The notes under the pieces: model-generated
What the model was told of the DNA's origin: nothing
What the model saw: the letters and a program-made list of their open reading frames with translations, nothing else
Database searches by the model: none
Part shown: positions 44,248-52,428 of the stretch, piece by piece
Position numbering within the stretch: position 1 is the stretch's first letter
Layout of the letters: each line of letters begins with the position of its first letter
DNA from: Kushneria aurantia DSM 21353
Lineage (GTDB): Bacteria > Pseudomonadota > Gammaproteobacteria > Pseudomonadales > Halomonadaceae
Reading direction: 5' to 3'
Length of the DNA: 64,000 nt
NCBI RefSeq assembly: GCF_000382245.1
Contig: NZ_KB907863.1
Location: 99,340 to 163,339, forward strand
Program-made: the position numbers and the translations under genes

Positions 44248-44697
44248 TTATCCATCGCCTTCATTATCCGGGATGAACGGCCTGCTCCACTGGGCCAGCC
44301 AGTCAGCGTATTCATCCTTATCGTATTCGTGGATAGCCAGCCCCACATACATACTGATCACTTCATCGCTGGGGGCGGTTAATTCCCAGCCGTTGAGATC
44401 AAGGAAGCGATACACCGCATCTGCTGCAGTTCGCTTGTTGGCATTGGCAAAGGGGTGGCTTTGCACGAGCGCTTCACCCAAAGCAGCAGCCATGCTGAAA
44501 ATGTCTTCGCTCTGTGTGTAATAAAGCGTCAGAGATGGGCGCTGACAAGCGCTTTCAAGCGCGCCCTGATGGATCACAGAATGATGCTCGCCCGGGGTAA
44601 GGGCGAGCATTTGCTGGTTGATTTCGATAACGTCGCGAGGAAAGAGAAACCGGAATTTTTCAGGGCAACCCTGGTTGTCTTCATCTTCCTTCGGCAT
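44248..44697 (-). CDS. Doc-type (Fic-fold) toxin
   Basis: A 149-residue Fic/Doc-fold protein. The core motif QSHPFANANKRTAADAVYRF fits the Doc consensus HxFx(N/D)(A/G)NKR rather than the AMP-transferring Fic form (GNGR), suggesting a kinase that phosphorylates EF-Tu. An upstream VIHQGALESACQRP helix and a C-terminal helix (EVISMYVGLAIHEYDKDEYA) complete the fold. A small gene ends six bases before its start. Activity is inferred from the motif. Confidence 0.82.
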   Translation of the reverse strand: MPKEDEDNQGCPEKFRFLFPRDVIEINQQMLALTPGEHHSVIHQGALESACQRPSLTLYYTQSEDIFSMAAALGEALVQSHPFANANKRTAADAVYRFLDLNGWELTAPSDEVISMYVGLAIHEYDKDEYADWLAQWSRPFIPDNEGDG

Positions 44698-45153: not shown

Positions 45154-46119
45154 TCAGTAAACGAAGGGCGGCATGGGGGCCTTCGACAGGCGCTCCTGCA
45201 GTACCCGAACCTCGGTACGCAGGCGGGTCAGCTCCTGCTCGCGCTCGCCCAGAGTGCGGCTGTGCTGCTCCTCGCGGGCGCGGCTCTCCTGTAACGCCTT
45301 CTCATGGTGGCGGCTCTGCTGACCGAGATCGCGCACCTTGCGCTCCTCCTCCTGCAGCAGGCGACGCTGCTCCTCGATCTGCGCCGTCATCTTCTCGATA
45401 CGCTCATCGAACTGCTCCTGGCGACGGCGTGACTGCTTCTCGAGATCCTGCTTTTCATTACGAGCGCCATCGAGCAGTTGCATCAGGCGGTTTTCGGCAC
45501 TCTCGTGGCGCGACTCCTCCTGCGCCAGGCGCCGCTTGTGGGCCTGATCGCGGGACTCCAGCGCCTGATGATGCTCGCGCTCCGTGCGATCGCGCTCTTC
45601 GCTCAGCGCGCTGATCTGTTTGTCGCGCATGGCCAGTCGCGCATCGCGCTCCTCGAGCTGGTTGCGCAGCTGTGCCGCCTCGCTCTCCAGCCGCGCCAGC
45701 GCCGAGGTCTTTTCTTCCAGCCGCGCGGCAGTGCTGTCGAGGCGCTCTCCCAGCGCCTCCAGACGCTGTTCGGTATCCTCCACGCGCCGCTGCGCCTGGC
45801 GGGTCTGCTCCTGCGCCTCCTCGACCTGCTCATCCGACTGCTGACGATAGAAGGAGAGGGCGCTGGTAGCCTCCTCCTGGGCCTGCTGCCAGAGGCCGGC
45901 CAGTGCCTCGTGAAGGCGCTCCGGCACGGCCTGCGGCAAGGGGGTGTCGCGATTTTCATCGCGCCTTGAGCGCCATTCGCGCAGGTGATCGCTGATGGTA
46001 GTGAAACTGCCGGTACCCAACACTTCGCGGATGCGCTGAACGCTGGGTGCGTCGCCGCGCTGTATCAGCGACTCGATCGCTCTCTGCACATCCTCGTACT
46101 GCACGCCATTTCGCGCCAT
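45154..46119 (-). CDS. KfrA-like DNA-binding coiled-coil protein
   Basis: A 321-residue protein. The N-terminal ~75 residues are a KfrA_N helix-turn-helix domain (VQRAIESLIQRGDAPSVQRI, TGSFTTISDHLREWRSRR). From about residue 85 to 310 it is one long coiled coil of Glu, Gln and Arg heptads, ending in APMPPFVY. Plasmid KfrA binds its own promoter and forms filaments that help partition. Here the gene is chromosomal and divergent from a tyrosine recombinase. ATG 46119 follows GGGGAGG by five bases. Confidence 0.85.
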   Translation of the reverse strand: MARNGVQYEDVQRAIESLIQRGDAPSVQRIREVLGTGSFTTISDHLREWRSRRDENRDTPLPQAVPERLHEALAGLWQQAQEEATSALSFYRQQSDEQVEEAQEQTRQAQRRVEDTEQRLEALGERLDSTAARLEEKTSALARLESEAAQLRNQLEERDARLAMRDKQISALSEERDRTEREHHQALESRDQAHKRRLAQEESRHESAENRLMQLLDGARNEKQDLEKQSRRRQEQFDERIEKMTAQIEEQRRLLQEEERKVRDLGQQSRHHEKALQESRAREEQHSRTLGEREQELTRLRTEVRVLQERLSKAPMPPFVY

Positions 46120-46444
46120 GACGGCCTCCCCGATAACGCGTTCCCTGTGCTCCCTCATTGCTGGCTGCCGCTGTTGTTGTGGCTGTGGCTGTTGTTATGG
46201 GTGACAGCAGCGCCTTGTAGCGGCGAGGGCAGTGTGATTTCACATTTTAACCCGTTGGCAACAAAAAAGACAGCAATTACATACGTTCATAATACGTAAT
46301 TTTTATTACACTTTAGGCTAAAAATTCATGATTACGCGGCTTATCATGATTTTTAGCCCATTATGCTGTTAATATCCATCGCGGCAAACGGGACTTTGGG
46401 CGGATAGGCGGCATCAGCCGGCCGCCATGGGAGAAAATCGCGGT
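46120..46444. other. 325-base divergent control region of the KfrA-like and recombinase genes
   Basis: No gene is supported. The part from 46230 to 46380 is AT-rich and contains short palindromic pieces (ACATACGTTCATAATACGTAA and GTAATTTTTATTAC) and the large inverted repeat described separately. It should hold both divergent promoters and may hold KfrA-binding sites or a recombination site. Confidence 0.6.
46316..46358. repeat. Large inverted repeat upstream of the tyrosine recombinase
   Basis: GGCTAAAAATTCATGAT (46316-46332) and ATCATGATTTTTAGCC (46343-46358) are inverted copies differing by a single extra T, with a 10-base spacer TACGCGGCTT. Two ~16-bp arms around a short spacer resemble both an operator and a tyrosine-recombinase core site. 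Confidence 0.7.
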
Positions 46445-47611
46445 ATGGCAGGACCTCTTCAGATCGAAAAAGACAGCGTCGCCATGGGGCGAGGAGAAGC
46501 GCTCGCCTCCGTCGACGGGGCGCTGATCAAGGCGCGCAGTGATCGCGAGGCGGTCGCCCTGTGGCTTGCCGAGTATGCCCATGCGCCACAGACCTTTCGT
46601 CACTACCGCAAGGAGGCCGAGCGGCTGCTGCTGTGGCTGGAGTCGCACGGTGAACGTCTTGGCGATCTGAATCGACCCAGACTCGAACAGTTCGACCGCT
46701 TTCTGGCCGATCCACGCCCGCGACACGACTGGGTCGGCCCGCCGCGGCCGCGCCACTCGCCGCAGTGGCGCCCCTTTCGCCGCCCGCTGAGCGCCGCCAG
46801 CCGACGTCAGAGCCTGGTGATTTTGCAGAGCATGCTGGGCTGGCTGGTCGAGGCGGGCTGGCTGACTCATAATCCCTTTCGACTGATGCGCGACAAGCGT
46901 CGCCGCCTCGATAACCGCAGTGACGGCGTCGAGCGCTACATCGAGCGCGACCTGTGGCAGCGCTGCTGGCAGCAGCTCGACGCCTCGGCCCCCGCGGATG
47001 CCACGGCCCGGCAGTGTTTTGAAACGGAGCGCCGCCGTTTTCTGTTTGCTTTCGCCTATCTGCTGGCGCCGCGGGTAAGCGAAATGAGTGCGGCGCGCAT
47101 GAACGACTTTCTTCGTCGCGAGGGCCGCTGGTGGTGGCAGGTCACCGGCAAGGGGGGCAGGGCGGCACGAGTGCCGGTGCCCGATGCCATGTGCGCGGCG
47201 CTGACTCGCTGGCGCGAAGCGCTGGCACTGACCGGCCTGCCCGACGAAGAGGAGCATACGCCGCTGCTGCGCGCCCTCGATGGCCGTCGCGGGCTGGGCG
47301 ACAACCAGCTCTACCGGCTGATTCGCGGCGTGTTTACCGAACTGGCCGAGACCCTTGACGATGGCAGCGAGCGAGGCCGCGCACAGGCGCGCACTCTGCG
47401 CCGCGCCACACCTCACTGGCTGCGCCACACGGCACTGACACACCAGGCGCAGCAGGGCGTCGAGCTACGTTACCTGGCACGCAGTGCACGCCACTCGCGG
47501 CTGGAAACCACCGCCCGCTACCTGCATGCCGAAGCCGAGGAGTGGCACGACCAGGTCAATCATCATCGCCTGGAGGGTGCAAAAATTCCTCCGAAGGGAG
47601 CGCCAGAGTAG
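46445..47611 (+). CDS. Tyrosine recombinase/integrase
   Basis: A 388-residue tyrosine recombinase. The N-terminal SAM-like core-binding domain covers about 30-145 (EYAHAPQTFRHYRKEAERLL). The catalytic set is complete: R210 in LAPRVSEM, K236 in VTGKGGRAAR, H324 and R327 in PHWLRHTALTH, H350 in ARSARHSRLET, and the nucleophile Y359 in ARYLHAE. No typical phage or island cargo is adjacent. ATG 46445 is chosen after GGGAG (11 bases away); 46427 and 46484 are alternatives. Confidence 0.88.
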   Translation: MAGPLQIEKDSVAMGRGEALASVDGALIKARSDREAVALWLAEYAHAPQTFRHYRKEAERLLLWLESHGERLGDLNRPRLEQFDRFLADPRPRHDWVGPPRPRHSPQWRPFRRPLSAASRRQSLVILQSMLGWLVEAGWLTHNPFRLMRDKRRRLDNRSDGVERYIERDLWQRCWQQLDASAPADATARQCFETERRRFLFAFAYLLAPRVSEMSAARMNDFLRREGRWWWQVTGKGGRAARVPVPDAMCAALTRWREALALTGLPDEEEHTPLLRALDGRRGLGDNQLYRLIRGVFTELAETLDDGSERGRAQARTLRRATPHWLRHTALTHQAQQGVELRYLARSARHSRLETTARYLHAEAEEWHDQVNHHRLEGAKIPPKGAPE

Positions 47612-51692: not shown

Positions 51693-51809
51693 GAATAGCG
51701 CGCAGTAAATCTGCCTTCATGGTAACGCCAATGCGAAACAGCCGCACCTCGAGAGCGGGGATCACAAGCAAAAACGGATCGATCAGGATACGGCTCAACC
51801 CATATTTAA

Positions 51810-51825
51810 CATAATATATATTATG
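51810..51825. promoter_or_regulatory. 16-bp perfect AT palindrome upstream of zur
   Basis: CATAATATATATTATG is perfectly self-complementary and lies 118 bases before the zur start. Fur-family operators are AT-rich palindromes of this size, and the ATAATAT/ATATTAT halves resemble Zur-box halves only loosely. It may be an autoregulatory Zur site or simply the promoter's AT-rich core. Confidence 0.45.
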
Positions 51826-51898
51826 CGCAATACTGGCATATCCTGTTCGGTCGAGGCCTTTGCAAAGTATTATCCTTTACTGTCTTGTATTGTCTTGC

Positions 51899-52171
51899 CT
51901 ACTCGCGGAAAAGATCAGCGTGGCTACCAGTACGAGCCACGTGCAGTTCGTCATCCGCTACGCAATACAGCAGCAACCAGTCGGGTTCGATGTGGGCATC
52001 TCGGTAGCCCTTCCAGTCCCCTCGTAACGGGTGATCCTGATAGGCATCCGGCAAGGGAGCTTGCTCAAGCAGTAGGCCCAGGAGTCGCCGTAGTTTCTCC
52101 ATGTCCTTACCGCGCTTCTGGACCCGCTTTACATCTCGCTTGAACTGACTGGAACGGACTGGGGTTAGCAT
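51899..52171 (-). CDS. yafQ: YafQ-family mRNA interferase toxin
   Basis: A 90-residue RelE-superfamily toxin of the YafQ branch: SSQFKRDVKRVQKRGKDMEK, PLPDAYQDHPLRGDWKGYRD, HIEPDWLLLYCVADDELHVA and the terminal TGSHADLF. The YafQ-type catalytic His and Asp residues (DHPLRG, HIEPDW, SHADLF) are kept. It cuts mRNA on the ribosome. Its ATG overlaps the antitoxin stop by one base. Confidence 0.92.
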   Translation of the reverse strand: MLTPVRSSQFKRDVKRVQKRGKDMEKLRRLLGLLLEQAPLPDAYQDHPLRGDWKGYRDAHIEPDWLLLYCVADDELHVARTGSHADLFRE

Positions 52172-52428
52172 CAGATGCCCAGGTCCTCGAACAGCGCATC
52201 CGCGCTATCAAAGCGCTTACCCTTGCCGGCTTCCAACTCGCCCAGGGCCTTGGCCGTGGTGGCATTTGGCATCTGCACGGCAAACGGCAGGCACTTCTCG
52301 TCGGCGATCCGCAGCATCAGCAGGCGTATGGCGTCAGACACGGACAGGCCCATGGCCTCCAGGGCAGCGGTAGCTCGCTCTTTGGTTTCGGCATCGATAC
52401 GGGCCCGAACGACAGCATCAGCACTCAT
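52171..52428 (-). CDS. dinJ: DinJ/RelB-family antitoxin
   Basis: An 85-residue antitoxin. The N-terminal ribbon-helix-helix (VVRARIDAETKERATAALEA, GLSVSDAIRLLMLRI) binds DNA, and the C-terminal stretch (TAKALGELEAGKGKRFDSAD) wraps the toxin. It precedes yafQ and probably represses the operon at the 26-bp palindrome lying 20 bases upstream. Confidence 0.92.
   Translation of the reverse strand: MSADAVVRARIDAETKERATAALEAMGLSVSDAIRLLMLRIADEKCLPFAVQMPNATTAKALGELEAGKGKRFDSADALFEDLGI

Follow-up and report, generated by a model that had tools for sequence, protein, structure and literature searches.

A divergent KfrA-type gene and tyrosine recombinase flanking a conserved 28-bp core near dif: a putative second dif-like module at the chromosome terminus in Halomonadaceae

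The gene pair analysed here, a KfrA-like coiled-coil gene divergent from a tyrosine recombinase gene, encloses a conserved 28-bp site close to the canonical dif of the chromosome (Table 1; the window is the whole 64-kb stretch of DNA that was studied). The site and the module to which it belongs are well supported. The present study leans towards the view that this is a resolution module of the Tn4651 kind, domesticated beside dif, that serves as a second dif-like system at the terminus in Halomonadaceae, its chromosomal role being read from its position. Specifically, an ancestral module, most likely from a plasmid or transposon, would have become a fixed Halomonadaceae locus beside dif. Its recombinase would bind both 11-bp arms of the core and exchange strands across the 6-bp spacer, and the KfrA-like protein would bind an ACGTAA box at a fixed distance on one side of the core, repress the divergent promoters and give the synapse its direction. 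A dimer of a chromosome or plasmid, in which two such sites stand in direct repeat, would then be resolved to monomers. Sister sites would remain together at the terminus until division, and there the module would act as a second dif-like system beside XerCD/dif. A more far-reaching form of this proposal, which we advance only tentatively, has two chromosome-resolution systems side by side: XerCD/dif and a domesticated transposon resolvase whose KfrA-type helper would replace FtsK directionality, with plasmids and some phages exploiting the second site and the KfrA-like protein having a terminus role of its own.

Table 1. Features of the module and its surroundings, in window coordinates
Feature	Position	Strand	Details
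KfrA-like gene, TnpT-like helper	45154..46119	-	321 aa; Pfam KfrA_N PF11740, E 1.5e-26, plus coiled coil
Accessory box region, TACGTAA-type, putative KfrA binding site	46278..46310		ACGTAA at 46294-46299, exactly 30 nt before the core
Inverted repeat as drawn in the first-pass annotation	46316-46358		17- and 16-nt arms (46316-46332, 46343-46358), one bulged base
28-bp core, putative crossover site	46324-46351	+	ATTCATGATTA / CGCGGC / TTATCATGATT, 11+6+11
Core, left arm	46324-46334		
Core, spacer	46335-46340		
Core, right arm	46341-46351		
Tyrosine recombinase gene	46427..47611	+	Pfam Phage_integrase, E 2.7e-14; 394 aa from first ATG (putative start)
Canonical XerCD-type dif	51804..51831	-	ATTGCGCATAATATATATTATGTTAAAT; 5.5 kb from the core

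Both genes are intact, and their Pfam matches bear out the first-pass annotation, which had recognised a KfrA_N coiled-coil gene and a complete recombinase. Residues R216, K242, H330, R333, H356 and Y365, which we take to be the catalytic set of tyrosine recombinases, are invariant in an alignment of 19 Halomonadaceae members. The recombinase is neither XerC nor XerD: it scores 64.6 and 41.6 bits against the respective profiles, far under the cut-offs of 335.15 and 329.6. Its predicted structure (mean pLDDT 75.2, pTM 0.53) was matched by Foldseek to XerD, Cre, lambda Int and XerH at query TM-scores of about 0.26-0.35, and matches at such low scores confirm only the fold class of the model. A defence-system library contained no match to the recombinase and gave weak, coiled-coil-like matches to KfrA. 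The gene order metH-nfuA-kfrA-rec-sufE-yidD-hisI-zur-dif is conserved at the locus. Between 39.6 and 54.4 kb of the window, neighbours identified with Pfam include methionine synthase, NifU-like, Fic, GFO/IDH oxidoreductase, SufE and YidD proteins, along with PRA-CH, an amidohydrolase that is presumably dihydroorotase, a Fur-family regulator, a YafQ-type toxin, ectoine synthase and a class-III aminotransferase; no transposase or mobile-element gene is among them. Three local features of this genome may be recorded separately. A Fic/DOC-family protein (44248-44697) lies between nfuA and kfrA and is absent at E 1e-6 from the other compared loci, the YafQ-type toxin gene (a Pfam assignment) and an upstream putative antitoxin ORF (51902-52428) adjoin dif, and a group II intron domain match is found at 850-922 (Rfam RF00029, 47.4 bits).

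The inverted arms recognised in the first-pass annotation do pair, with one bulge, and the unit that is conserved, the 28-bp core, is narrower than that repeat. The consensus ATTCAWGATTA-N6-TTATCWTGAAT occurs in nearly all of 30 compared relatives. With up to three mismatches, the family consensus, which was derived from the relatives together with this sequence, has one match in the window and none in 100 shuffles. A default-settings inverted-repeat search reported nothing between the genes because the arms are interrupted. Genome-wide, the core was found at two or fewer mismatches in 31 of 58 relatives, namely 30 of 37 Halomonadaceae and 1 of 21 others, and its reversed control in none of the 58. 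To this can be added 80 named Halomonadaceae loci, the 80 best among 459 located with the recombinase as query, and so all selected for possessing it: kfrA is divergent within 1.5 kb in 77 of these 80, and the core is present in 79. The non-divergent loci are L085, which lies at a contig end and is also the sole locus without a core, and L071 and L111, which have inserted genes. Information content is 1.77 bits per position in the arms and 1.17 in the spacer, against 0.39 in the 30 nt of downstream flank. Among the sequence comparisons, this conservation is the best evidence that the core exceeds chance, and it gives a positive outcome to the search for recurrence of pair and repeat that the first-pass annotation had proposed. 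Pairing of the arms scored 9.29 compared with 8.92 for shuffled partners, and pairing of the outer flanks 4.49 compared with 4.04 (flanks, 0/1000 shuffles); relatedness can cause a slight pairing excess of this sort in flanks or arms, and we claim no structure from it. A separate palindrome scan was a weak tool: a first positive control, on four Halomonadaceae loci, failed to return the known core, and a second returned it in three of four loci.

The accessory box keeps a nearly constant distance from the core. ACGTAA stands at exactly -30 in 52 of the 79 loci and at -29 in five, and ATGTAA stands at -30 in eight; 15 of the 79 have no ACGTAA within 110 nt upstream of the core. The distances from the site to both genes vary, unlike the box-core spacing, and this fixed spacing suggests that two proteins touch one another here or sit on one face of the helix.

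Gene loss within the family separates the two elements. A strong recombinase match, one each, is present in 32 of 37 family genomes (E 2.9e-85 or better), and kfrA is matched in 36. The recombinase has no match in G012, G025, G029 and G035 and a weak partial one in G032. The core (two or fewer mismatches) occurs in 30 of the 32 recombinase-bearing genomes versus none of the five recombinase-less ones; the remaining two bearers, G013 and G036, have a diverged palindrome in its place with both arms changed (ATTCACGGTAA..TAACCGTGAAT and TTTCACGGTAA..TAACCATGAAT). Four of the five recombinase-less genomes retain kfrA with TACGTAA-type boxes upstream (L141, L142, L143, L144), and G029 has neither. 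Thus, from the loss pattern in these five genomes, the core goes with the recombinase and the box with kfrA. Moreover, the core is kept with 0-1 mismatches in G022, Zymobacter, Halotalea and Modicisalibacter ilicicola, where other genes intervene between it and the recombinase, and so it is not merely the recombinase promoter. The inserted genes in these four split loci look cellular (presumably transport, siderophore-like and DUF488-like, judged by eye from the translations) and no second core borders them, which led us to reject the idea of mobile elements integrating into the core. Both genes are under purifying selection, with dN/dS of 0.06-0.18 for the recombinase and 0.015-0.20 for kfrA (13 pairs each), and both are less constrained than the nfuA and sufE controls (no higher than 0.07, 6 pairs). 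In the one recombinase-less pair of genomes that was compared (G012/G035), dN is 0.015, dS 0.66 and dN/dS about 0.02. Since strong selection persists there, kfrA probably has a recombinase-independent role near dif.

The core lies 43.6-49.0% of the chromosome from dnaA in eight of nine genomes with a chromosome-size contig. The ninth, G031, has it at 20.4%, and even so dif is 6.7 kb from the locus. Twelve of 13 genomes have a canonical dif (at most one mismatch); its distance from the core is 4.9-14.5 kb in 11 of them and 36.5 kb in G026. G030 has only an unrelated 3-mismatch match and a 4-mismatch candidate about 10 kb from the core. At two or fewer mismatches, dif occurs within about 10 kb on each side in 68 of the best 80 of 459 loci, 64 in a common orientation and four in the other. 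The zone of FtsK-directed recombination extends about 10 kb either side of dif (PMC5357621). Because gene order is conserved, the position was inherited and not repeatedly chosen, which weakens it as evidence; nearness to dif is inherited synteny, and the loci cannot be counted as independent cases of it. All 14 genomes searched have, in addition to the module recombinase, two full-length Xer-type genes, the better scoring 295-332 bits and the second 289-305; none of the 14 genomes has one that reaches the XerC cut-off of 335, and we infer the names XerC and XerD for them. With these genes and dif (12 of 13 genomes) in place, a second system is not needed, and the module would be an addition.

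Copies of the core also occur on plasmids. Of the 32 recombinase-bearing family genomes, 25 have a single core at two or fewer mismatches, two have none at that threshold (the diverged palindromes above) and five, G004, G005, G015, G026 and G033, have extra copies on six further contigs, all apart from the module contig. These contigs include pZB5060, three with Rep_3 initiators (G004, G015, G033) and one of 7.7 kb that is tandem-duplicated; the sixth, G004:C6, is a 36.6-kb contig that contains an integrase gene and may be chromosomal. Among plasmids, the core was located on pHAL40 (4.3 kb), on Zymobacter palmae pZB5060 (5.1 kb) and, in a shared segment, on pTHAF12_a and pTHAF12_c. A profile search of these four plasmids found no family recombinase on three and a weak, different recombinase match on pTHAF12_a (E 4.8e-6). 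When the plasmid-type core was compared with 72,556 plasmid records, eight matched, six of them from Halomonadaceae (two weak, E 0.6 and 7) and the others from Agrobacterium and Pseudomonas (both E 7). Five plasmid-type cores (L035-L038, L052) end the right arm in TGAGC, compared with TGAAT on chromosomes. The plasmid-type core loci have no TACGTAA-type box within 400 nt, so that the box is not always required if plasmid cores are used. Viral evidence is modest: the core pattern matches five IMG/VR contigs versus two for the reversed control, with near-perfect cores on three of the five (L051, L220, L222). The 42.8-kb sequence from which L051 was taken shows no match to the recombinase, the fetched stretches of L220-L223 match neither recombinase nor kfrA, and no match in named phages covered 80% of the core query. 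Copies of the core on plasmids and phage contigs recall cer and pdif, which parasitise XerCD; in the more far-reaching form of the proposal, the second site would be exploited as cer and IMEX elements exploit the first.

Such copies raise an alternative that we regard as unlikely, namely that this is a true resolution system which now resolves plasmid multimers, or excises integrated elements, and not chromosome dimers, its terminus position being accidental. The cores on small or mobilizable replicons (pHAL40, pZB5060, pTHAF12_a/_c, the two weakly matched Halomonas plasmids and the Rep_3 contigs of G004, G015 and G033) are what it would predict, and XerCD-type genes and dif already exist for the chromosome. 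However, it is difficult to see why 32 of 37 genomes would maintain a gene on the chromosome that serves plasmids, and 27 of the 32 bearers have no extra copy of the site (drafts may miss plasmids). Improbable, in our judgement, is a fossil in which the palindromes are mere operators of divergent promoters and the recombinase has lost its activity. Autoregulation of transcription is known for KfrA proteins (PMC7821693) and the box tracks kfrA, as such a scheme would have it; yet the catalytic residues are invariant, the recombinase dN/dS is low as given above, the core is kept where the recombinase gene lies kilobases off and is lost with the recombinase and not with kfrA, and bare cores occur on plasmids.

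The wider distribution of kfrA than of strong recombinase matches (36 against 32 of 37 genomes), together with its low dN/dS in the recombinase-less pair, could be taken to mean that the protein chiefly organises the DNA around dif and that the recombinase is an optional partner. We think this quite improbable as the main function, given that the 64-kb window contains a single box match and TACGTA is no commoner there than chance, so no spreading array is visible in it. The first-pass annotation had itself suggested a DNA inversion or phase-variation module, on the strength of inverted arms next to a recombinase, and this part of its proposal we reject as very improbable: the two arms make up one 28-bp site instead of two, only one core is present in 25 of 32 genomes, the extra copies in five lie on other contigs, none of them demonstrably chromosomal (though G004:C6 may be), and kfrA, core and recombinase keep one order and orientation in 77 of the best 80 of 459 loci. 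Its broader suggestion, that the locus is a chromosomal module for recombination in which a KfrA-like protein is the architectural or regulatory partner, is well supported; it had missed that dif lies at a distance of 5.5 kb, that TnpS/TnpT/rst offers a precedent and that an ACGTAA box at constant distance belongs to the unit. If the module is indeed a second dif-like system, the dimer-processing zone of a bacterial family contains a second resolution system of independent origin. This would bear on whether XerCD/FtsK has back-ups and on the restriction of dif function to the vicinity of the terminus, and would illustrate how the cointegrate-resolution module of a transposon can become a host function. 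In addition, the 28-bp core and its plasmid copies could be used directly in resolution assays and in building stable Halomonas vectors.

Distant homologues of the recombinase in other families bear on a related problem. What replaces dif/Xer in lineages of this type has been posed as a question (PMC2731167). An order-wide search (GTDB Pseudomonadales) with recombinase profile A1 gave matches with E of at most 1e-30 in 48 of 145 genomes, four of these Halomonadaceae, and in eight matched non-family genomes of one or two contigs the homologue lies 45.0-49.6% from dnaA. No XerD-type match at 1e-40 was found in 13 of 16 genomes tested, the exceptions being G073, G167 and G051; dif at two or fewer mismatches was found in G073 and G167 only, among 16 genomes of which 15 are common to the XerD set. 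Eleven of the 22 tree rows in the other-family clade described below were tested for XerD, and all eleven were without it. The pattern ATTTCCNNTAA-N6-TTANNGGAAAT, at two or fewer mismatches, occurs in 18 of 24 such genomes versus none of six comparison genomes, 16 of the 18 having palindromic arms by eye and 12 exact ones (candidate dif loci L192, L200, L206, L197-L199, L201, L212, L214-L216); its reversed control has matches in 6 of 30 genomes too. The palindromic match lies 47.3-49.9% from dnaA in the five genomes of one or two contigs that have one on the chromosome. None was seen on the chromosome in G041 and G177, and it is also absent from some others. In IMG/VR, 76 contigs (L224-L299) contain the strict palindrome and none its reversed control; 73 have the form ATTTCCGGTAA...TTACCGGAAAT, and these contigs are possible dif-mimic phages. 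A viral scan with the deep-branch form found none. By analogy with XerL in Legionellales, the terminal homologue and the palindrome are a candidate replacement for dif/Xer, and they suggest a candidate recombinase and a palindromic candidate dif for lineages in which no XerD was detected.

The Halomonadaceae recombinases form one clade (93/83) and 22 of 23 rows from other families another (100/100, on a long stem). Both arise, as do two plasmid lines, from a single unresolved fork (90/80), outside which a further pair of plasmid recombinases branches under midpoint rooting. The remaining row, G167, groups with the recombinase of a Halioglobus plasmid (100/100) and may, from its placement, be a transfer. 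The distant homologues in other families were not accepted as orthologues, the tree leaving it unsettled which line is nearest to which. For this reason a plasmid or transposon origin rests on layout as much as on the tree; mainly from the common layout, the module is likely to have derived from a mobile resolution module.

Two genes of pWW0 (NC_003350), annotated there as a DNA-binding protein and a site-specific integrase, were taken from their position to be TnpT and TnpS. As with TnpS/TnpT of Tn4651, the module has divergent genes with the site between them (here in 77 of the best 80 of 459 loci), and its KfrA_N helper is 32% identical to TnpT over about 208 residues (E 2e-15), a similarity that may be due in part to coiled coil. 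The rst site combines an accessory palindrome for TnpT with a core for TnpS (PMC4619425, PMC7157771). The likeness extends to its arrangement, in which the accessory palindrome is at the helper side (by scan) and a shorter core palindrome at the recombinase side (by eye; the scan missed it). TnpS itself, on a very long branch in the recombinase tree, gives no BLASTP alignment to the module recombinase (best E 0.79; the Pfam domain alone is common), and the two were on this basis not equated. Unlike Tn4651, moreover, the module is chromosomal, family-wide and beside dif, with different core and box sequences, no transposase among the Pfam-scanned neighbours (39.6-54.4 kb) and a fixed gene order. 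Plasmid pA81 has a KfrA_N gene, a ACGTAATACGT box, a palindrome and a related recombinase in the identical order, its palindrome being widest with a 10-nt spacer, unlike the core described here. The recombinases of pA81, of Cupriavidus pRK1-3 (beside a Tn3 transposase) and of Tn4401 (the tyrosine-type tnpR) are homologous to that of the module at 33-43% identity, but these belong to mobile elements that are not fixed and have core sequences of their own. A core on a Halioglobus plasmid, ATTCATGATTA-ACCCTA-TAATCATGAAT, resembles that of the module. KfrA of IncP-1 and IncU plasmids shares the KfrA_N domain and coiled coil, and KfrA-like N-domains in Halomonas spp. have already been mentioned, with no recombinase, site or dif in the available part of that source (PMC7783346). 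Among the literature matches listed, most subscription papers being outside their scope, titles and abstract openings describe neither a second recombinase near dif in Halomonas nor a KfrA-recombinase module, nor TnpS/TnpT relatives of this kind, which may nonetheless be published.

The other close parallel is with chromosome-resolution systems. Like XerCD/dif, the module has a 28-bp 11+6+11 site at the terminus, a tyrosine recombinase and copies of the site on plasmids, and like dif its site is single and chromosomal (at the terminus in 8 of 9 genomes, single-copy in 25 of 32). It differs in having one recombinase, near-palindromic arms and a KfrA-type helper. A single recombinase is also the rule in XerL/dif of Legionellales, XerS/difSL and XerH/difH; the arms are palindromic in XerL, a system to which we liken the module by description and not by sequence, and the site adjoins the gene in XerS and XerH, both as in the module (PMC9765430). 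Those systems, however, act in bacteria without XerCD, whereas the module in Halomonadaceae coexists with XerCD-type genes and dif.
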